Shown: piece by piece, positions 50,844-64,000 of the stretch
Layout of the letters: each line of letters opens with the position of its first letter
Numbering within the stretch: the stretch's first letter is position 1
Assembly: GCF_000423585.1 (NCBI RefSeq)
Contig: NZ_AUIG01000002.1
Span: 62,001-126,000 of the forward strand
Direction: 5' to 3'
From: Salinimicrobium xinjiangense DSM 19287
GTDB lineage: Bacteria; Bacteroidota; Bacteroidia; Flavobacteriales; Flavobacteriaceae
Length of the DNA: 64,000 nucleotides
Made by a program: the position numbers and the translations under genes
The notes under the pieces: generated by a model
Databases searched by the model: none
The model's input: the letters and a program-made list of their open reading frames with translations, nothing else
Told to the model about the DNA's origin: nothing

Positions 50844-51395
50844 ATGAAACTTGAAACGTTAGAGAAGGATTCGGTTTATCACCTTTATAATAGGGGGATA
50901 AATAGGTCGAACATTTTTTCTAATGAAGAAAATAAATTTTACTTCCTTAAACAATATAACAAGTACTTATCCGGAAAGGTTTCCACCTTTGCATACTGTC
51001 TTCTCCAAAACCATTTTCATCTCGTTGTGAGAATTGAAGGTGAAACTAAAGAAGTCACCCAATGCTTTTCAAATTTCTTTAATTCCTATGCAAAGGCATA
51101 TAATAAATTGGAAAACAGGAGCGGCAGTTTATTTGAAAAACACTTTAAGAGAATTAAAGTAAATAAGGAATCTTACTTGAAACAACTTATAATCTATGTA
51201 AATTTGAATCCCCAAATCCATTTTGGGGAAGATTTTAAAGACTATTCTTTTTCTTCCTATAAAGAAATATTAAAAGAGTCTTCAAAAATTATAAAATCAG
51301 ACGAAATTTTTGAGCTTTTTGGAGGGAAAAAGAACTTCGAAGAAGTACACGACATTCGCAAAATCTCTTTGTCTGACCAATTAACATTAGAATAG
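50844..51395 (+). CDS. REP-associated tyrosine transposase (TnpA-REP, Y1/IS200-like)
   Basis: 183-residue single-domain Y1 transposase. The HUH motif is H57-F-H59 in LLQNHFHLVV, and the probable nucleophile is Tyr118 in IIYVNLNP. VYHLYNRGINRSNIF at the start is typical of the RAYT group. It nicks single-stranded REP sequences like those 15-97 bases upstream. It lies in the hem operon direction and hemE begins 9 bases later. Confidence 0.92.
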   Translation: MKLETLEKDSVYHLYNRGINRSNIFSNEENKFYFLKQYNKYLSGKVSTFAYCLLQNHFHLVVRIEGETKEVTQCFSNFFNSYAKAYNKLENRSGSLFEKHFKRIKVNKESYLKQLIIYVNLNPQIHFGEDFKDYSFSSYKEILKESSKIIKSDEIFELFGGKKNFEEVHDIRKISLSDQLTLE

Positions 51396-56164: not shown

Positions 56165-56872
56165 ATGAATAAAAGCACTTATTCCAAAATCGCAATTGTC
56201 ACCGGCGGAAGCAGCGGAATAGGGAAAGCAATAGCCGAAAAATTAAACAGCCAAGGAATTAAAGTAATTGTTGCAGATAAAGCAGATGGCGAAAAATTAG
56301 CCGGGGACATTGAAATGAGAAAGTGTGATGTGACCAGCGGCGAGGAGATAGACGAACTTTATTCCTGGGTTACAAAGAATTTTGGACATCCGGAATATCT
56401 CATCCTCAATGCAGGACAGGGAATTCAGGAGAAACTTACAGAAGGGGATCCGGAAAAATGGAAAAAAGTGCTGGACATAAATATCATGGGTGCATTGAGA
56501 TGCATCAGGGCCTTTACTCCGCACATGATTGAAAATAAAAGAGGAAACGTAGTTTTCATTTCATCTGTTTCAGCAAACCAGCCACACCCTTATGGCGGAA
56601 TTTATGCCGCTTCAAAGACGGCGCTTGAAGTCATTGCTGAAACATTAAGACTGGAAACAATTCCGTACATCAATGTAACTGTCGTAAGTCCCGGAATAGT
56701 GGATACCGCATTTTATAAGCACCAGATCTCCGGTGACAATTCCGTAGAAAAAATGGGGATGGGCGCTATAACTTCCGAAGAGATTGCAGAAGATGTGTGG
56801 TATGCTTTAAACAAGAAAAAAGGAACAAGTATAAATAAAATCATAACAAGACCAACATTACAGGATTTCTAA
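56165..56872 (+). CDS. Short-chain dehydrogenase/reductase
   Basis: 235-residue classical SDR: TGGSSGIGKAIA at the N terminus for NAD(P), NAG in the fourth strand, and the catalytic Ser with YAASK further on. Substrate unknown. First gene of a plus-strand operon with gaps of 19, 10, -4, 1, -11 and -4 bases. It may oxidise or reduce a sugar or polyol made by the operon. Confidence 0.9.
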   Translation: MNKSTYSKIAIVTGGSSGIGKAIAEKLNSQGIKVIVADKADGEKLAGDIEMRKCDVTSGEEIDELYSWVTKNFGHPEYLILNAGQGIQEKLTEGDPEKWKKVLDINIMGALRCIRAFTPHMIENKRGNVVFISSVSANQPHPYGGIYAASKTALEVIAETLRLETIPYINVTVVSPGIVDTAFYKHQISGDNSVEKMGMGAITSEEIAEDVWYALNKKKGTSINKIITRPTLQDF

Positions 56873-56891: not shown

Positions 56892-58010
56892 ATGCAGAAA
56901 AAAGTCTTAATAACCGGAGGGGCCGGGTTTATAGGGTCCCATCTCGCAGATGAACTTTTAAATAAAGGATATAAAGTCCGTGCTCTTGATAACCTTTCAG
57001 AGCAGGTACATGGAGAAAATGCTACCCGTCCCGAATATCTTCATCAGGATGTTGAACTTCAAATAGGAGACGTAAGGGATAAGGCAGCAGTGGAAAAGGC
57101 TCTTGAAGGTGTTGACGCTGTGATACATCTTGCCGCCATGGTTGGTGTTGGACAAAGTATGTATCAAATCAAAGACTACACAGATGTAAATAACGTGGGT
57201 ACTGCAGTGCTCATGGAAGCTTTAATGGATAAGCCTGTTGAAAAACTGGTAACCGCATCGAGTATGAGCATCTATGGAGAAGGTCTTTACCTGGATGAAA
57301 AGGGAGAAAAGAGAATGGATTGTGAAAGAAAACTTTCCGATCTCAAAAAGGGTCAATGGGAGATGTATGACAGCAATGGAAAAGAGCTGGAGCCTGTCCC
57401 TACACCTGAATCTAAAAATCCGAATCTTTCTTCGGTATATGCACTTTCTAAATATGATCAGGAAAGATTAAGTCTTATCACCGGAAAGGCTTATAATTTT
57501 CCGGCAACTGCATTGAGGTTCTTTAATGTTTACGGAACCCGTCAGGCACTCTCCAATCCCTACACCGGAGTGCTTGCCATATTTGCCTCAAGGCTGCTGA
57601 ATAATAATCCGCCTATGATCTTCGAGGACGGAAAACAGAAACGGGATTTTATTCATGTCAAAGATGTGGCCCGTGCTATTCGCTTAGCCATGGAAAAACC
57701 TGAAGCCGATGGGGAAGTATTCAACGTGGGTAGCGGAAACAAATACACCATACTGGAGATAGCCGATAAACTTGCAGGAGTGATGGGCAAGGATAATTTA
57801 AAGGCAGAAGTCACCGGAAAATACCGTGTTGGAGATATAAGACATTGTTTTGCCGACACTACAAAAACAGAAAAGCTACTCGGATTTAAACCTGAAGTTA
57901 AATTCGAAGATGGCTTGTATGAACTGGCAGAATGGCTTAAGACACAGATTGCTACCGATAATGTGAGTAAAGCCAGCAGTGAACTTTCATCCAGAGGTCT
58001 AACCGTATAA
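56892..58010 (+). CDS. NAD-dependent sugar epimerase/dehydratase
   Basis: 372-residue extended SDR acting on nucleotide sugars. ITGGAGFIGSHLADELL binds NAD; VTASSMSIYGEG and YALSKYDQE give the Ser/Tyr/Lys set; RDFIHVKDVARA is a further family motif. It resembles UDP-glucose 4-epimerase-like enzymes, but has an insert of about 35 residues between the Ser and Tyr motifs. Exact reaction not readable. Confidence 0.88.
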   Translation: MQKKVLITGGAGFIGSHLADELLNKGYKVRALDNLSEQVHGENATRPEYLHQDVELQIGDVRDKAAVEKALEGVDAVIHLAAMVGVGQSMYQIKDYTDVNNVGTAVLMEALMDKPVEKLVTASSMSIYGEGLYLDEKGEKRMDCERKLSDLKKGQWEMYDSNGKELEPVPTPESKNPNLSSVYALSKYDQERLSLITGKAYNFPATALRFFNVYGTRQALSNPYTGVLAIFASRLLNNNPPMIFEDGKQKRDFIHVKDVARAIRLAMEKPEADGEVFNVGSGNKYTILEIADKLAGVMGKDNLKAEVTGKYRVGDIRHCFADTTKTEKLLGFKPEVKFEDGLYELAEWLKTQIATDNVSKASSELSSRGLTV

Positions 58011-58020
58011 AAGAACAGCT

Positions 58021-60051
58021 ATGAACGAAATGAAAAAGATAAACGAATCGTCACCGGCTCTTGGAATTCTTGAATGGTTTAGGCCCGGCGAATACGAACA
58101 GGTTAAGCAGGCAATAGAGGATTTTAAAAGGCTTGGGATCAAACACCTTCGTACCGGGATCTCCTGGGCAGACTGGTACGTAGAAGGAACTCCCGAATGG
58201 TATGACTGGTTGTTTGCAGAACTGGATCCACATGTGGAAATACTACCCTGTTTCCTTTACACACCACCTTCTATCGGAGAAATGGCCAAAACCTCTGCCC
58301 CTCCAAAAGACCTGAAAGCATATGCCGATTTCATTGATGAAATGATCACCCGTTACGGACAATATTTCGACTGGATTGAGCTGTGGAATGAACCCAACAA
58401 TAAAGTCGAGTACGATTTCACACTGGATTATTCCTGGAATAAATTTTCTACAATGATAGGAATGGCCGCACATTGGGCTCAAAAAAGGGGGAAAAAGACC
58501 CTGCTTGGGGGGATGAGTCCCATAGATCCCAACTGGCTGCAAATGATGGCTGAACAAAAAGTGCTGGATTACATAGACGCAGTAGGAATTCACGGTTTTC
58601 CTCATGTATTTGACCAACAATGGAAAGGTTGGGAAGTCAATATTAAGAGCGTACGGGAAATCCTGGAGAAAAATGGATATAAGCAGGAAATATGGATATC
58701 GGAAGTCGGTTTCTCCACCTGGCAAAATGATGAAGTTAAACAATACCAGGAATTTAAAAATGTACTCAATGCCAATGCTGCCCGTATCTACTGGTATTCC
58801 CTTAAAGATCTTGATCCAAAGAATTCCACCGTAGGAGGCTTTCACCTCGATGAGCGGGAATATCATTTCGGACTGAAGAAGACCGATGGCACGAAAAAAT
58901 TGCTTTATAAGCTGCTGGAAAAAGACGGTGTTGAGAAGATCCACCAGCAGCATTATATCAATAAGCAGTATAAAATCGATGAGAAGGAAAAATACACGCT
59001 CATCACCGGCGGCGCCGGATTCATTGGTACTAACCTCGCATCCCGTTTTCTTTCGGAAGGAAAACGCGTGATGATCTACGACAGTCTTTTTCGCGACGGA
59101 GTGGAAGAGAATCTTCAGTGGCTGCAAAAAGAGTACGGTGATAAGCTGCTCATACAGATCTCTGATATCAACGAGACCAGAATCCTGCAGCAATGCGTGA
59201 ACAATGCTTCGGAAGTTTTCCATTTGTGTGCCCAGGTTGCTGTTACTTCTTCGGTAACGAACCCGATTCATGATTTTAACGTGAACCTCAGCGGAACTTT
59301 TCATCTTTTGGAGGCTATCCGGAAGAGTAAACATCAGCCGCCTTTGATCTTCACCTCGACCAACAAAGTCTACGGAAATCTTCAGGATGTAAAAATGGAA
59401 GAGACTGAAACCAGGTATTATCCCGCAGATGCGAAGATGAAGAAATACGGGATTAATGAAAAGATCCCGCTGGACTTCCACAGTCCCTACGGCTGTTCTA
59501 AAGGAGCGGCAGACCAGTACATACTTGATTATTCAAGAACCTACGGACTAAAAACAGTTGTCTTTAGAATGAGCTGTATTTACGGTCCACATCAGTTTGG
59601 TACCGAAGATCAGGGTTGGGTTGCCCATTTCCTTATCAGTGCTCTGGAAGACAAGCCGGTAACCATCTACGGAAACGGAAAACAGGTAAGAGACATTCTC
59701 TTTGTAGAAGATCTTATAGACGCTTTTATGCTGGCGCACAAAAATATGGATAAGCTTGCCGGTGAAGTATTCAACATAGGTGGAGGAACAGAAAACACCG
59801 TGAGTCTGCTGGAAATTCTGAACATCATAAGAGAAAAGGCCGGAAAAGAAATGGACATTAGTTTCGAAGACTGGCGCACCGGGGATCAGTTCTATTATGT
59901 CTCCAATACCGACAAATTCAAGGAAGCCACGGGATGGAAGCCAAAATATAATATTGAAGAAGGAGTTGAAAACCTGCTGAGATGGCTTTGCGAAAACCGA
60001 AGCATTGAACTTCCCGAAAATCTAACTCCGAAAAAACAGATCGCCATATGA
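58021..60051 (+). CDS. Fusion: cytoplasmic clan-A glycosidase + CDP-paratose-2-epimerase-like domain
   Basis: 676 residues in two parts. Residues about 10-310 form a TIM barrel like GH39/GH5 glycosidases, with acid/base Glu124 in ELWNEPNN and nucleophile Glu228 in WISEVGFST. Residues about 324-660 form an extended SDR: TGGAGFIGTN (G330-G336), Y490-GCS-K494, and IYDSLFRDGVEENLQWL, the pattern of CDP-paratose/tyvelose 2-epimerases. No signal peptide, so both act in the cytoplasm. The reading frame is unbroken across the join. Perhaps the glycosidase trims a product or intermediate whose sugar the epimerase supplies (inference). Confidence 0.88.
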   Translation: MNEMKKINESSPALGILEWFRPGEYEQVKQAIEDFKRLGIKHLRTGISWADWYVEGTPEWYDWLFAELDPHVEILPCFLYTPPSIGEMAKTSAPPKDLKAYADFIDEMITRYGQYFDWIELWNEPNNKVEYDFTLDYSWNKFSTMIGMAAHWAQKRGKKTLLGGMSPIDPNWLQMMAEQKVLDYIDAVGIHGFPHVFDQQWKGWEVNIKSVREILEKNGYKQEIWISEVGFSTWQNDEVKQYQEFKNVLNANAARIYWYSLKDLDPKNSTVGGFHLDEREYHFGLKKTDGTKKLLYKLLEKDGVEKIHQQHYINKQYKIDEKEKYTLITGGAGFIGTNLASRFLSEGKRVMIYDSLFRDGVEENLQWLQKEYGDKLLIQISDINETRILQQCVNNASEVFHLCAQVAVTSSVTNPIHDFNVNLSGTFHLLEAIRKSKHQPPLIFTSTNKVYGNLQDVKMEETETRYYPADAKMKKYGINEKIPLDFHSPYGCSKGAADQYILDYSRTYGLKTVVFRMSCIYGPHQFGTEDQGWVAHFLISALEDKPVTIYGNGKQVRDILFVEDLIDAFMLAHKNMDKLAGEVFNIGGGTENTVSLLEILNIIREKAGKEMDISFEDWRTGDQFYYVSNTDKFKEATGWKPKYNIEEGVENLLRWLCENRSIELPENLTPKKQIAI

Positions 60052-61058
60052 GATCAGCCGAAACGATGCAGGAGAAATCTCCTGTTTCAGAAGAAACTAC
60101 TGTAAGAAGAGCAGCAGTACTAGAAGCCCCTCAAAAAGTTAGCATAAAAGAGTTCGAACTTCCTGAACCCGGAGAAGGTGAAGTGCGTATAAAATTGGAA
60201 GGCAGCGGAGTTTGTGCCTCAAATATTCCGGTGTGGGAAGGACGTGACTGGTTCGATTATCCCGTTACTCCGGGAGAACCGGGGCATGAAGGCTGGGGAA
60301 CTATAGATGCCGTTGGCGCCGGAGTGAAAGATCTAAAAGAAGGAGATCGCGTTACGGCATTAACTTATAAGGCTTACGCCACTCACGATATTGCAAAAGA
60401 AGATACTGTAGTGAAATTACCAGAAAGTCTCTCCGGAAAAGCTTTTCCGGGAGAACCTTTGGGATGTGCGATGAACATTTTCAATCGCAGTGATATCCAA
60501 AAAGGCCAAAAAGTAGCCATAGTTGGCAGCGGATTTTTAGGATCCCTGCTGGTACAACTGGTAAAGTCAGCCGGGGCCGAGGTCATCGCTGTTTCCAGAA
60601 GACAATTTTCCCTCGACACTGCTAAAGAAGCAGGCGCAGATCACCTGGTTCAAATGGATGATCATTACAAGATCATTGAAGAAGTAAAAGAATTGACAGG
60701 CGGGAACTTCTGCGAAAGGGTGATAGAATGTACAGGAAAAGAATGGCCATTGAATTTGTCAATAGAACTAACAGGAACGAGAGGAAAATTGATCGTCGCA
60801 GGCTTCCATCAGGACGGCATGCGCAGCCTCAATGTACAGATGTTGAATTGGAGAGGAATTGACATGATAAGTGCCCATGAAAGGGATCCACAGCAGTACA
60901 TAAAAGGTATAAAAACAGCTATAGATGCAGTGGAGCAGGGAAAAATGGACCCTTTCCCCCTATTTACCCATAAATTTAGCCTTGAAGAAATGGGGCAAGC
61001 CTATGAACATCTCACGGAACGACCCGACGGATTCATTAAAGCATTAATTATTAATTAA
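60048..61058 (+). CDS. MDR-type alcohol/sugar dehydrogenase
   Basis: 336-residue medium-chain dehydrogenase: GroES-like domain with SGVCASN and GEPGHEGWG (catalytic-zinc Cys and His-Glu), then a Rossmann domain with VGSGFLGSLL. The four-Cys structural zinc loop of classical alcohol dehydrogenases is absent. Overlaps the fusion gene by ATGA. Likely oxidises or reduces a sugar or inositol-like compound. Confidence 0.88.
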   Translation: MRSAETMQEKSPVSEETTVRRAAVLEAPQKVSIKEFELPEPGEGEVRIKLEGSGVCASNIPVWEGRDWFDYPVTPGEPGHEGWGTIDAVGAGVKDLKEGDRVTALTYKAYATHDIAKEDTVVKLPESLSGKAFPGEPLGCAMNIFNRSDIQKGQKVAIVGSGFLGSLLVQLVKSAGAEVIAVSRRQFSLDTAKEAGADHLVQMDDHYKIIEEVKELTGGNFCERVIECTGKEWPLNLSIELTGTRGKLIVAGFHQDGMRSLNVQMLNWRGIDMISAHERDPQQYIKGIKTAIDAVEQGKMDPFPLFTHKFSLEEMGQAYEHLTERPDGFIKALIIN

Positions 61059-61059
61059 A

Positions 61060-62073
61060 ATGATCGCAACTCAACCCACAAATAAAGAATTATCCCTGGG
61101 CTTCCTGGGCGTAGGCTGGATAGGTCGTAATCGCATGGAGGCCATCCTCGATCATACCAATGCTAAAGTCACGGCAATCGCAGAACCAAATTCCGAAAAT
61201 TCTGATGCCGCTTTAAAGAGCGCCAAAAATGCCATTTTAAAGACCTCTGCGGAAGAACTTTTTTCTGAAGAAGATCTTGACGGAATTGTCATCGCAACCC
61301 CTAGTGCCATGCATGCCGAACAAAGTATGCAGGCCCTGAAAAGCGGAAAAGCAGTGTTCTGCCAGAAACCTTTAGGCCGCACTGCCGAAGAAGTGAAACA
61401 GGTTGTGGAAGCTTCCCGGGAAGCAGATAAATTACTCGCTGTCGACCTCTCCTATCGCTACACTAAGGCATTTAAAGCTGTCTACGATACCATCCAAAAA
61501 GGGGAAATTGGGGATGTGTTTGCCGTGGACCTTAAATTCCATAACGCCTACGGGCCCGATAAGGAATGGTTCTACGACATCAAACGCTCCGGCGGAGGTT
61601 GTGTAATGGATTTGGGAATCCACCTGGTTGATCTGGCGCTATGGAGCCTGGATTTCCCCGAAATTTCAGACGTACGGAGTCAGCTTTACCACAAAGGCCA
61701 GAAATTAACCTCTTTTGAGGAACACGTAGAGGATTTTGCGAGTGTTTCTATAACTTCAGAAAAGGAGCAGGTGATCAACTTAGAGTGTTCGTGGCATGTT
61801 TCCGCAGGAAAAGACGCTATCATAGAAGCTACTTTCTACGGTACAAAAGGAGGGGCATCTTTTAGGAATATCAACGGCTCTTTCTACGATTTCAATGCAG
61901 AAAAATATCAAGGTACCCAGACAGAAACCCTTGTCACTCCTCCGGATGAGTGGAGCGGACGCGCCGGCGTGGTTTGGGTGGAAAATATGATCAAAAACAA
62001 CCGGTTCGACGAAAAATCGGCCACAGAATTCATAAAAACAGCAAAAGTAATTGACCGCATCTATGGAAGATAA
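61060..62073 (+). CDS. Gfo/Idh/MocA family oxidoreductase
   Basis: 337 residues. N-terminal Rossmann fold (LGVGWIGRNRMEAI), then CQKPLGRTAEEV where the conserved Lys of the EKP motif is kept but Glu is Gln, and GGGCVMDLGIHLVDLALW in the substrate domain. Acts on sugars, inositols or nucleotide sugars. One base after the MDR gene, suggesting consecutive redox steps. Confidence 0.92.
   Translation: MIATQPTNKELSLGFLGVGWIGRNRMEAILDHTNAKVTAIAEPNSENSDAALKSAKNAILKTSAEELFSEEDLDGIVIATPSAMHAEQSMQALKSGKAVFCQKPLGRTAEEVKQVVEASREADKLLAVDLSYRYTKAFKAVYDTIQKGEIGDVFAVDLKFHNAYGPDKEWFYDIKRSGGGCVMDLGIHLVDLALWSLDFPEISDVRSQLYHKGQKLTSFEEHVEDFASVSITSEKEQVINLECSWHVSAGKDAIIEATFYGTKGGASFRNINGSFYDFNAEKYQGTQTETLVTPPDEWSGRAGVVWVENMIKNNRFDEKSATEFIKTAKVIDRIYGR
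61226..61238. repeat. AAAATGNCATTTT palindrome in Gfo/Idh gene
   Basis: Exact copy (centre GCC); the coding strand reads KNAIL. Confidence 0.7.
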
Positions 62074-63169
62074 GAAGATGAAAGTTTTGATGACTACCGA
62101 TACGGTAGGCGGAGTTTGGGTATATTCCCTGGAGCTCTGCAGGGCGCTGGAGCAGTATGACGTACAGGTGCATTTAGTAGCAATGGGAGGCTGGCCTTCC
62201 CCTGCCCAACAGGTGGAAGCCGAAAAGATCCCGAATGTTACATTTTACAAGAGCGATTATAAGCTGGAGTGGATGAAAGATCCCTGGGAAGATGTGGAGC
62301 AATCCCGTAAATGGATAAACTGCATTTACACTACGGTGCAGCCAGATGTGGTGCACCTCAACAACTACGCGCATGTAGAGGAAGAATGGACCGCTCCGGT
62401 GGTCACTGTTTTTCATTCCTGCGTGCAAACCTGGTGGCAGGCCGTGAAAGGAAAAGCCGCCCCAGAGGAGTGGGATCAATATACAAGAATTGTGAAGGAA
62501 TCGCTGCAGGCCTCAGATATTGTAGTGGGACCCACGCAGGCAATCCTTGACAAAGCTGCAAAAGCCCATCATTTCACTTCGGAAATAAAAGTGATCCACA
62601 ACGGCAGAAGTATCAAAACTTCGGAAGCAAAGCCGAAAGAAGAATTTATCCTGTGTATGGGCAGGATGTGGGACGAAGCAAAGAACTTTCCTCTGCTGTC
62701 TAACATAGCTGAAAGGCTTCCATGGCCTGTTTACGTGGCAGGCGAATCTGTTAATCCGGACACCGGAAAGGAGTGCAGTCTCAAAAATGTGAAATTCCTG
62801 GGAAGATTATCTCCGGCAGAAGTACAGGACTGGATGCAGCGGGCGAGCATTTTCGTGAGCCCCACCCGTTATGAGCCTTTCGGACTCGCCATTTTAGAGG
62901 CCGCAGCAAACGGCTGTGCCCTGGTGCTGAGTGATCTGGAAACGCTTCAGGAATTATGGCAGGATGTTGCCCTATTCTTCAATCCCGAAGATGAAGCTGA
63001 AGCTGAAAAAACAGTGACCAGACTAATTGAAAATCCTGAATTCCTTAAGGAGCTTTCAGAAAAGGCCAGAGAAAGAGCCGGAAAATTTTCCGCAGAAAAA
63101 ATGGGAGCCGCATATCACCGGCTGTACCATGAAATAATGGAAAAAGAACAAAAATTGATGAGTATATGA
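62063..63169 (+). CDS. GT4 family glycosyltransferase
   Basis: GT-B fold retaining glycosyltransferase. TTDTVGGVWVYSLEL is the N-terminal Gly-rich loop, and SPTRYEPFGLAILEAA has the EX7E motif for the nucleotide sugar. Start taken at 62063 (11-base overlap with the previous gene); the ATG at 62078 (MKVLMTTD) is also good. Transfers one sugar to an unknown acceptor. Confidence 0.9.
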   Translation: MEDKKMKVLMTTDTVGGVWVYSLELCRALEQYDVQVHLVAMGGWPSPAQQVEAEKIPNVTFYKSDYKLEWMKDPWEDVEQSRKWINCIYTTVQPDVVHLNNYAHVEEEWTAPVVTVFHSCVQTWWQAVKGKAAPEEWDQYTRIVKESLQASDIVVGPTQAILDKAAKAHHFTSEIKVIHNGRSIKTSEAKPKEEFILCMGRMWDEAKNFPLLSNIAERLPWPVYVAGESVNPDTGKECSLKNVKFLGRLSPAEVQDWMQRASIFVSPTRYEPFGLAILEAAANGCALVLSDLETLQELWQDVALFFNPEDEAEAEKTVTRLIENPEFLKELSEKARERAGKFSAEKMGAAYHRLYHEIMEKEQKLMSI

Positions 63170-64000
63170 AAATAGTGATGTTTTACCATTCCCTTTATTC
63201 GGACTGGAACCACGGGAATGCGCATTTTTTACGGGGGATCGTCAAGGAACTTCAAAAACGGGGACATGACGTGGATGTCTATGAACCCGAAGGTGGCTGG
63301 AGCCTTCAGAATCTGCTGAAGGATCACGGGGCCGAGCGGCTGGATGAATTCCGGCAGTATTATCCTTCGCTGAATCCGCAGTTCTACAACCCCGAGAAAA
63401 AACTGAACTATCAAAGTATACTTGGAAAAGCCGACCTGGTGATCGTTCACGAATGGAACGACCCTAAACTCATGGCTGAAATAGGAAAGCAAAAAGAAAG
63501 GTTTGGCTATAAATTAATATTTCACGATACCCATCACCGGGCTGTTTCTGCCGAAGAAGAAATGGCAAAATTCGACCTTTCGAACTTTGATGGCGCCCTT
63601 GTATTTGGGGAGGTGATCAAAAAGATCTATCAGGAGAAAAACTGGGTGAAGAATGTGTGGACCTGGCATGAAGCGGCAGATGCCGAATTTTTCAGTCCGA
63701 ACCGCGATGAAGAAAAGGAAGGTGACCTGGTGTGGATTGGCAACTGGGGTGACGGAGAAAGAAAAGAAGAACTGTTTGAATTTTTGATCAATCCCGTGAA
63801 GGAGCTAGGCATAAAGGCGAAGGTTTACGGCGTTCGTTATCCCGAAAAAGCACAAAAAGCACTTGCCGATGCCGGAATTGAATACGGCGGATGGTTACCA
63901 AACTATAAAGTGCCTGAAGTATTTGCGAAATATAAAGTTACAGTACATGTGCCGCGACGGCCTTATGTTCAAATGTTGCCGGGGATCCCTACTATCCGGC
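63166..64000 (+). CDS. CgeB-like glycosyltransferase, 3' end beyond window
   Basis: The frame from the ATG at 63166 (overlapping the GT4 stop by ATGA) is open to the right edge, 278 codons visible. MKIVMFYHSLYSDWNHGNAHFLRG at the start, FHDTHHR, WTWHEAADAEFFSP and VHVPRRPY follow the pattern of GT-B enzymes of the CgeB/spore-coat type. No signal peptide. The operon clearly continues to the right. Confidence 0.8.
   Translation, partial: MKIVMFYHSLYSDWNHGNAHFLRGIVKELQKRGHDVDVYEPEGGWSLQNLLKDHGAERLDEFRQYYPSLNPQFYNPEKKLNYQSILGKADLVIVHEWNDPKLMAEIGKQKERFGYKLIFHDTHHRAVSAEEEMAKFDLSNFDGALVFGEVIKKIYQEKNWVKNVWTWHEAADAEFFSPNRDEEKEGDLVWIGNWGDGERKEELFEFLINPVKELGIKAKVYGVRYPEKAQKALADAGIEYGGWLPNYKVPEVFAKYKVTVHVPRRPYVQMLPGIPTIR

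Follow-up and report, generated by a model that had tools for sequence, protein, structure and literature searches.

A clan-A-type glycosidase barrel fused to an extended SDR in a conserved glycosyltransferase operon of Salinimicrobium xinjiangense, and its apparently circularly permuted standalone relatives

In clan-A glycosidases the catalytic glutamates are located at barrel strands 4 and 7. The gene of PslG, the enzyme whose fold is closest to the N-terminal half of the protein studied here, is a member of the Psl exopolysaccharide operon. PslG is reported to be an endo-beta-glucanase; its family, GH39, is retaining, and the protein carries a signal peptide and matures to a periplasmic form (PMC11912335). 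For the C-terminal half, the closest described systems are the CDP-tyvelose 2-epimerases (TyvE/RfbE). A report on TaTyvE links T124, N125, K126, Y164, K168, Q205, R237 and R299 to catalysis, sugar positioning or phosphate contact, and ascribes only minor changes in activity to variants of V83 and M85 (PMC13098431). Natural rotation of a glycosidase-type barrel is known from GH70, in which the barrel is circularly permuted relative to GH13, beginning with what is helix 3 in GH13 (PMC11046441), and which is described as a natural permuted TIM barrel (PMC6274110). The matches listed for circular permutation in an open library concern GH70, NlpC/P60 peptidases and, in one case, NAD systems of viruses. 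The gene neighborhood of the locus has already been noticed, as shown by the family models TIGR04290 (methyltransferase) and TIGR04295 (B12_rSAM_oligo) of the NCBI curators; it is presumably the one labelled 'rhizo-twelve'. Literature searches returned neither the names TIGR04290/TIGR04295 nor the term 'rhizo-twelve', and the neighborhood is known as curated family names only.

We analyzed a window of 64,000 nucleotides of the S. xinjiangense DSM 19287 genome. The gene of interest (58021..60051, on the + strand, as are all features of the operon given below) is a single open frame without internal stops, has full-length relatives and encodes a protein of 676 aa. The original prediction, of a glycosidase and an epimerase in one unbroken frame, with a clan-A-type glycosidase at the N-terminus and an extended SDR at the C-terminus, agrees with our analysis in both respects. 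The observation of a real glycosidase-epimerase fusion is confirmed, and the earlier interpretation as a whole is partly supported. The pairing had been called undescribed, and among the literature matches listed we indeed found no description of it; both domains are known, and the pairing and the clan-A permutation discussed below are new as far as the open-library search reaches. The predicted lack of a signal peptide is in line with a hydropathy test, by which no obvious export signal and no hydrophobic N-terminus were found (highest Kyte-Doolittle mean over 15 residues within the N-terminal 50 aa, 0.15). Comparison with the fusion at locus L005 gave a dN of 0.05 and a dS of 1.49 for the glycosidase half, and a dN of 0.03 and a dS of 1.35 for the SDR half; in the other five pairs compared, dN was 0.05-0.20 and dS was 2.6 or saturated. 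By these ratios, with dS near or beyond saturation, both halves look to be under constraint. Structure prediction of the full-length fusion (pLDDT 63.3, pTM 0.51) gave a model too poor for use, which holds no information on domain contact.

The fusion was found in 11 genome loci. Ten of these are full length, with 71-93% identity (Salinimicrobium, Gillisia, Marivirga, Flavobacterium), and the eleventh, cut by the contig start, covers residues 132-676. Among plasmids, 156 records match the fusion and 50 have one place at a cover of at least 80%, chiefly from Rhizobium and also from Tistrella, Paracoccus, Geminicoccaceae, Xanthomonas and Agrobacterium; with these records and a conserved operon, the gene is not the isolated oddity for which it had been taken. 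Three of 149 sampled genomes of its own family, the source genome included, have a match, and in all three it lies in an open frame of 682-688 aa. The glycosidase half has matches in 8 of 395 sampled Bacteroidota genomes, one being the fusion of the source genome and seven being weak. These seven were considered as further fusions and rejected, as none of them (0/7) showed a match to the SDR half in the DNA fetched; the fusion looks rare in Bacteroidota. Six pattern matches in viral contigs included no relative of the fusion. In a plasmid of Xanthomonas sacchari (L018:12001-12881) the glycosidase part is spread over two reading frames; the rest of the cluster, SDR2 part included, matches in single pieces.

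The N-terminal domain (residues ~15-305, 58063..58935) is assigned a clan GH-A-type (beta/alpha)8 barrel with a PslG/GH39-like fold on the basis of an AF2 model, Foldseek and alignment. The model, the best of five and built with 11 close sequences, has a mean pLDDT of 74.1 and a pTM of 0.78 (the other four models, 59-67). It places barrel strand 4 at residues 118-122, followed by E124, and strand 7 at residues 223-229, with E228 at its end; thus the predicted barrel (model pLDDT 74) has its glutamates at strands 4 and 7, as in clan GH-A. The loop 125-137 beside E124 is below a pLDDT of 50. E124 (codon 58390..58392), in the context ELWNEPNN, is the predicted acid/base, and E228 (codon 58702..58704), in the context WISEVG, the predicted nucleophile. 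Both were found where the original prediction had placed them, as were the motifs at residues 330 and 490, and all are invariant in 19/19 aligned fusions from Bacteroidota and Alphaproteobacteria, so that a check for lost catalytic residues did not refute the fusion. Together with R44, N123, H191 and W258, the two glutamates are invariant in 28/28 proteins, i.e., the 19 fusions and nine permuted proteins. The active site of clan A is thus complete in the N-terminal half, which is probably a retaining glycosidase.

In the Foldseek search with the model, PslG ranked at the top (E 1.5e-13, TMq 0.71), and the leading matches were two PslG entries, one 'glycosyl hydrolase from Pseudomonas aeruginosa' and one GH39 enzyme (E 1.5e-13 to 9.7e-12). 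Sequence comparison gave less: Pfam showed no significant glycosidase match for this half, its GH39 model did not match at E values up to 10, and no GH39/PslG family profile matched above its cut-off. A sequence profile gave weak matches to solved structures, namely the 6-phospho-beta-glucosidase 4ipl (E 2e-4) and the GH39 enzyme 1px8 (E 0.16). Like PslG, the domain is a glycosidase-type protein encoded with polysaccharide synthesis genes; unlike PslG, it is fused to an epimerase, lacks a Pfam GH39 match and has no signal peptide that we could see. Beta-mannanases and one beta-mannosidase were also among the Foldseek matches, which had prompted a link between the halves through mannose (a mannosidase with a mannose-forming epimerase). 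We dropped this link because PslG is reported as an endo-beta-glucanase, and because ranking within clan A gives no specificity.

The C-terminal domain (residues ~325-660, 58993..60000) is the only part of the fusion recognized by Pfam, as an extended SDR (Epimerase, GDP_Man_Dehyd). Its closest solved structures, 9rl0 (E 1e-95) and 1orr (E 1e-86), are both CDP-tyvelose 2-epimerases, so the expected CDP-paratose-2-epimerase type holds. The GxxGxxG NAD-binding motif (residues 330-336, 59008..59028), with G330, G333 and G336, and the triad T447, Y490 and K494 are kept in 19/19 fusions and in 9/9 separate SDR2 proteins. T447-N448-K449 (59359..59367) align with the TNK segment at TaTyvE 124-126, and the Y490-xxx-K494 pair (59488..59502) with TaTyvE Tyr164/Lys168; both segments are invariant. 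All TaTyvE-equivalent residues, T447, N448, K449, Y490, K494, Q531, R557 and R619, are present in 19/19 fusions, so that the domain shares with TyvE/RfbE the fold family, the triad, the TNK segment and the pyrophosphate-contacting arginines R557 and R619. It differs from them in being fused, in this lineage, to a glycosidase and in the VAM segment, which reads V406 (or T), A407 and V408, the last in place of Met85 of TyvE; among the other positions tested in the 19 fusions, V406 alone varies (V or T). A further difference is that the source genome has no CDP-glucose synthase over the cut-off of TIGR02623, and the nucleotide of the donor may therefore not be CDP. Judged by these residues, the C-terminal half probably catalyzes the NAD-dependent C2 inversion of a nucleotide hexose. 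An SDR with 51% identity to this half is encoded in a different polysaccharide cluster of Azospirillum brasilense plasmid p2 (L043).

The fusion gene is the third of the operon, with spacings in the window of -23 to +19 bases. It is preceded by a classical SDR gene (56165..56872, 235 aa), which has the same place in the seven Bacteroidota loci tested (own included), and by SDR1 (56892..58010, 372 aa), an extended SDR and partner epimerase/dehydratase. Downstream are a zinc-type alcohol dehydrogenase of the MDR type (60048..61058), whose start overlaps the fusion stop by 4 bases, a Gfo/Idh/MocA dehydrogenase (61060..62073; top NCBIfam model inositol 2-dehydrogenase, 120 bits vs a cut-off of 355) and the glycosyltransferases GT_a (62051..63169) and GT_b (63166..64000, truncated where the window ends). 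GT_c, GT_d and a TIGR04290 methyltransferase follow GT_b outside the window (L019:10300-13292, own locus). The methyltransferase scores 340 bits against TIGR04290 (cut-off 300) and lies beside the glycosyltransferases, so the operon is the same as that of the TIGR04290/TIGR04295 neighborhood; it differs from it in that neither the source locus L019 nor any of the six other Bacteroidota loci has the TIGR04295 radical SAM protein.

By tblastn at an E threshold of 1e-15 we scored 32 loci with the cluster, the source locus among them; 25 of these were scored first, with L043 as a non-cluster comparison. They are not independent of each other: seven are Bacteroidota loci closely related to that of the window, many come from Rhizobiaceae, one species accounts for L032 and L052, and one strain for L044 and L056. 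SDR1, GT_a, GT_b, GT_c and GT_d are each present in 32/32 loci, SDR2 in 31 (missing in L042, A. brasilense plasmid p2) and the TIGR04290 methyltransferase in 30. The methyltransferase is missing from L032, which ends ahead of its expected place, and was not found in L014, which extends 1.5 kb beyond GT_d; methylation is therefore not universal. A glycosidase of either form is present in 31/32 loci, 18 with the fused linear form (including L018 with its frame break) and 13 with a permuted standalone protein; none was seen in L047, which the record start truncates. The gene tables of the annotated plasmid loci, which have gaps, name no transporter, flippase or polymerase from the first cluster gene to the last. 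A potassium channel and a PQ-loop transporter lie just outside the cluster limits.

In loci with SDR2 as a separate gene, the fused barrel matches by tblastn as two blocks in swapped order, residues ~120-297 and then ~11-113. The ends of these blocks map to residues 113-115 (58357..58365), which close helix 3 and precede strand 4. The free glycosidase of the split clusters thus appears, by alignment, to be circularly permuted, with strand 4 at its start and strands 1-3 at its C-terminus. The standalone proteins have 307-320 aa and begin just ahead of strand 4 with M/V-IEAA-M/K-IWNEPNNK in 9/9 examined; they end after the equivalent of helix 3 with a short tail. In 6/9 loci (L033, L039, L040, L041, L042, L044) the annotated start overlaps the methyltransferase stop by 4 bases, which fixes the N-terminus there. 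Rotation of the standalone sequences raised the local score in 8/8 proteins tested against each of three fused domains; against the window, it rose from 292 to 400 for S. meliloti and from 265 to 400 for A. lipoferum, with shuffles at ~36. The ninth protein, from S. medicae, was aligned in rotated form only. As a control, rotating the window barrel lowered its score against three other fused barrels (3/3). The outgroup linear Bacteroidota glycosidase L026 scored 158 against the A. lipoferum protein as is and 224 after rotation, which, from one outgroup and one protein, indicates that the fused order is the ordinary one. Both catalytic glutamates are kept in 9/9 permuted proteins. At the positions of E18, R21 and P83 in the fused form, the permuted proteins have Q, H/N and E, and Y257 varies, so substrate recognition may differ between the forms. 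GH70, whose barrel starts near the cut of the standalone relatives, is thus a precedent, outside clan A, for rotated glycosidase barrels; the present case would differ in concerning a predicted retaining beta-glycosidase of clan-A type, opened between helix 3 and strand 4 and encoded in homologous operons. A query with the permuted form against all plasmids matched 148 places in 146 records, 97 of the records at a cover of at least 80%; from this within-record count, at most two records hold two places.

The permuted glycosidase adjoins an inositol-3-phosphate synthase and a histidine phosphatase in 13/13 cluster loci, and again in L059. In the first 25 loci, the 10 split clusters have the synthase and phosphatase, and the 15 fused clusters lack both of them and the permuted glycosidase within the fetched stretches. 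The source genome (0/1) lacks the synthase (PF01658), and the fused pathway therefore needs no inositol-3-phosphate synthase there. A second regularity concerns the dehydrogenases. Six of the first 25 loci encode the TIGR04295 B12-binding radical SAM protein, and the zinc dehydrogenase is absent from exactly those six (L047 being truncated) and present in the remaining 19/19. In all 32 loci, the TIGR04295 protein occurs in seven (L017, L033, L038, L042, L044, L047 and L056), without the zinc and Gfo/Idh dehydrogenases; the other 25 have both dehydrogenases and no TIGR04295 protein, with the exception of L046, which lacks Gfo/Idh. As a guess, the dehydrogenase pair and the radical SAM protein may bring about the same net change on one hydroxyl.

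Both regularities were set as predictions and then checked on six held-out loci. The rule on radical SAM protein and dehydrogenases held in 6/6, and that on the fused form and the permuted module in 5/6. The exception is a plasmid of Rhizobium sp. CB3090 (L054, L059), which has a fused cluster and, ~10 kb off, a set of synthase, phosphatase, permuted glycosidase, F420-type and pyruvyl-transferase genes, the module genes each matched in a single piece. Strict mutual exclusion of the fused glycosidase and the permuted module, which had held in the first 25 loci, was therefore rejected, and given the distance of ~10 kb, further modules could lie outside the fetched stretches of other loci. The CB3090 plasmid could possibly be an intermediate or a sign of different jobs; with both forms on one plasmid, they may not be interchangeable. 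In trees of SDR2, the methyltransferase and GT_c, split Sinorhizobium/Ensifer clusters stand beside fused Rhizobium/Agrobacterium clusters, and two, three and three changes between the fused and split states are needed, respectively (moderate supports, midpoint root). The fusion is not essential, for the halves are separate genes in related clusters, where the glycosidase is circularly permuted. Two plasmids of Bradyrhizobium sp. 195 (L044:7958-11671, L056:16431-20141) combine a split cluster with a nucleotidyltransferase, an extra glycosyltransferase and an annotated phosphopentomutase, and these added genes are a possible clue to the donor sugar.

The reading that we favor, with a probability of roughly 0.55, is that the fusion acts in the cytoplasm as a bifunctional enzyme and belongs to an operon for oligosaccharide assembly; its C2 epimerase would make a donor, and its retaining glycosidase would trim or transglycosylate. 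T447, Y490 and K494 of the C-terminal half would oxidize C2 of a nucleotide-activated hexose to a transient ketone in an NAD-dependent manner, and return of the hydride from the other face would yield a manno-type donor for the four glycosyltransferases of the operon. The PslG-like N-terminal half, with E228 as nucleophile and E124 as acid/base, would trim or transglycosylate the growing chain; as it would act on a chain under construction, we propose cutting to be a step of synthesis. A methylated oligosaccharide of the cytoplasm is the product suggested by the four glycosyltransferases, the methyltransferase and the lack of any named exporter. Linkage of the halves might aid co-production or co-location and would not be required. 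Substrate channelling from epimerase to glycosidase as a requirement for the fusion was rejected, because the halves occur as separate genes and the glycosidase is expected to free a sugar that is not nucleotide-bound.

Some retaining clan-A enzymes transfer sugars between glycosides, and the glycosidase half could instead be a transglycosylase or phosphorylase, taking a sugar from a glycoside and adding it to the chain under construction. The operon with its four glycosyltransferases, the lack of a visible export signal and the retention of E124 and E228 would all suit such an enzyme; we nevertheless regard it as rather unlikely, as no sequence feature was found that separates transfer from hydrolysis, and PslG, the closest fold, is reported to hydrolyze. 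In a catabolic cluster, the glycosidase would release sugar from a glycoside taken up by the cell, for processing by the dehydrogenases and the epimerase; this reading could draw on the resemblance of the alcohol and Gfo/Idh dehydrogenases to inositol/glycoside dehydrogenases, which stays below all cut-offs. The constant presence of four glycosyltransferases (32/32 loci), the methyltransferase in 30/32 and the absence of any named transporter or sugar kinase within the annotated clusters (gene tables incomplete) make this improbable.

Low sequence similarity to named glycosidase families would fit a barrel that is catalytically dead and serves the epimerase as a glycan-binding scaffold, but such a scaffold would hardly explain the invariance of both acids and of R44, N123, H191 and W258 in 28/28 proteins, separate permuted genes included, and we consider it very improbable. 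Joining of two genes by misassembly or frameshift, for which the frame break in the glycosidase part of X. sacchari L018 could be cited, has next to no likelihood: a check for a misassembled join found the same fusion in 11 genome loci and 50 plasmid records, and the full-length frames in 10 of those loci, with the cover of at least 80% in the plasmids, refute it.

Beyond the favored reading of a bifunctional assembly enzyme, we tentatively suggest, at somewhat less than even odds, that a widespread oligosaccharide pathway depends on the glycosidase as an obligatory biosynthetic enzyme of the cytoplasm, and that this enzyme exists in two topologies: in ordinary order when fused to the C2 epimerase, and permuted when free, the latter spreading as a module with an inositol-3-phosphate synthase and a phosphatase. 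If so, it would represent a new glycosidase family containing a natural circular permutation, and the pathway would be built of interchangeable modules, including a radical SAM protein that replaces a dehydrogenase pair. The analysis makes the orphan fusion an entry point to an unstudied pathway of Salinimicrobium, Rhizobium, Sinorhizobium, Azospirillum and others; Sinorhizobium includes the laboratory strain S. meliloti 1021, which has a split-type set at pSymB 242475-260353, with the glycosidase match at 257009-257887 and the SDR2 match at 248779-249813. The pair of topologically rearranged glycosidases offers natural material on how a barrel survives permutation, and the idea of a cytoplasmic glycosidase as a building step in bacteria becomes testable. 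Stress-type genes near the clusters (DUF1003, manganese catalase, sigma-70 family factors) point, as a guess, to a protective role of the pathway.

Elsewhere in the window, a frame of 183 aa (50844-51395) without a Pfam match lies between HemD-type and uroporphyrinogen decarboxylase genes; it may resemble REP-associated tyrosine transposases.
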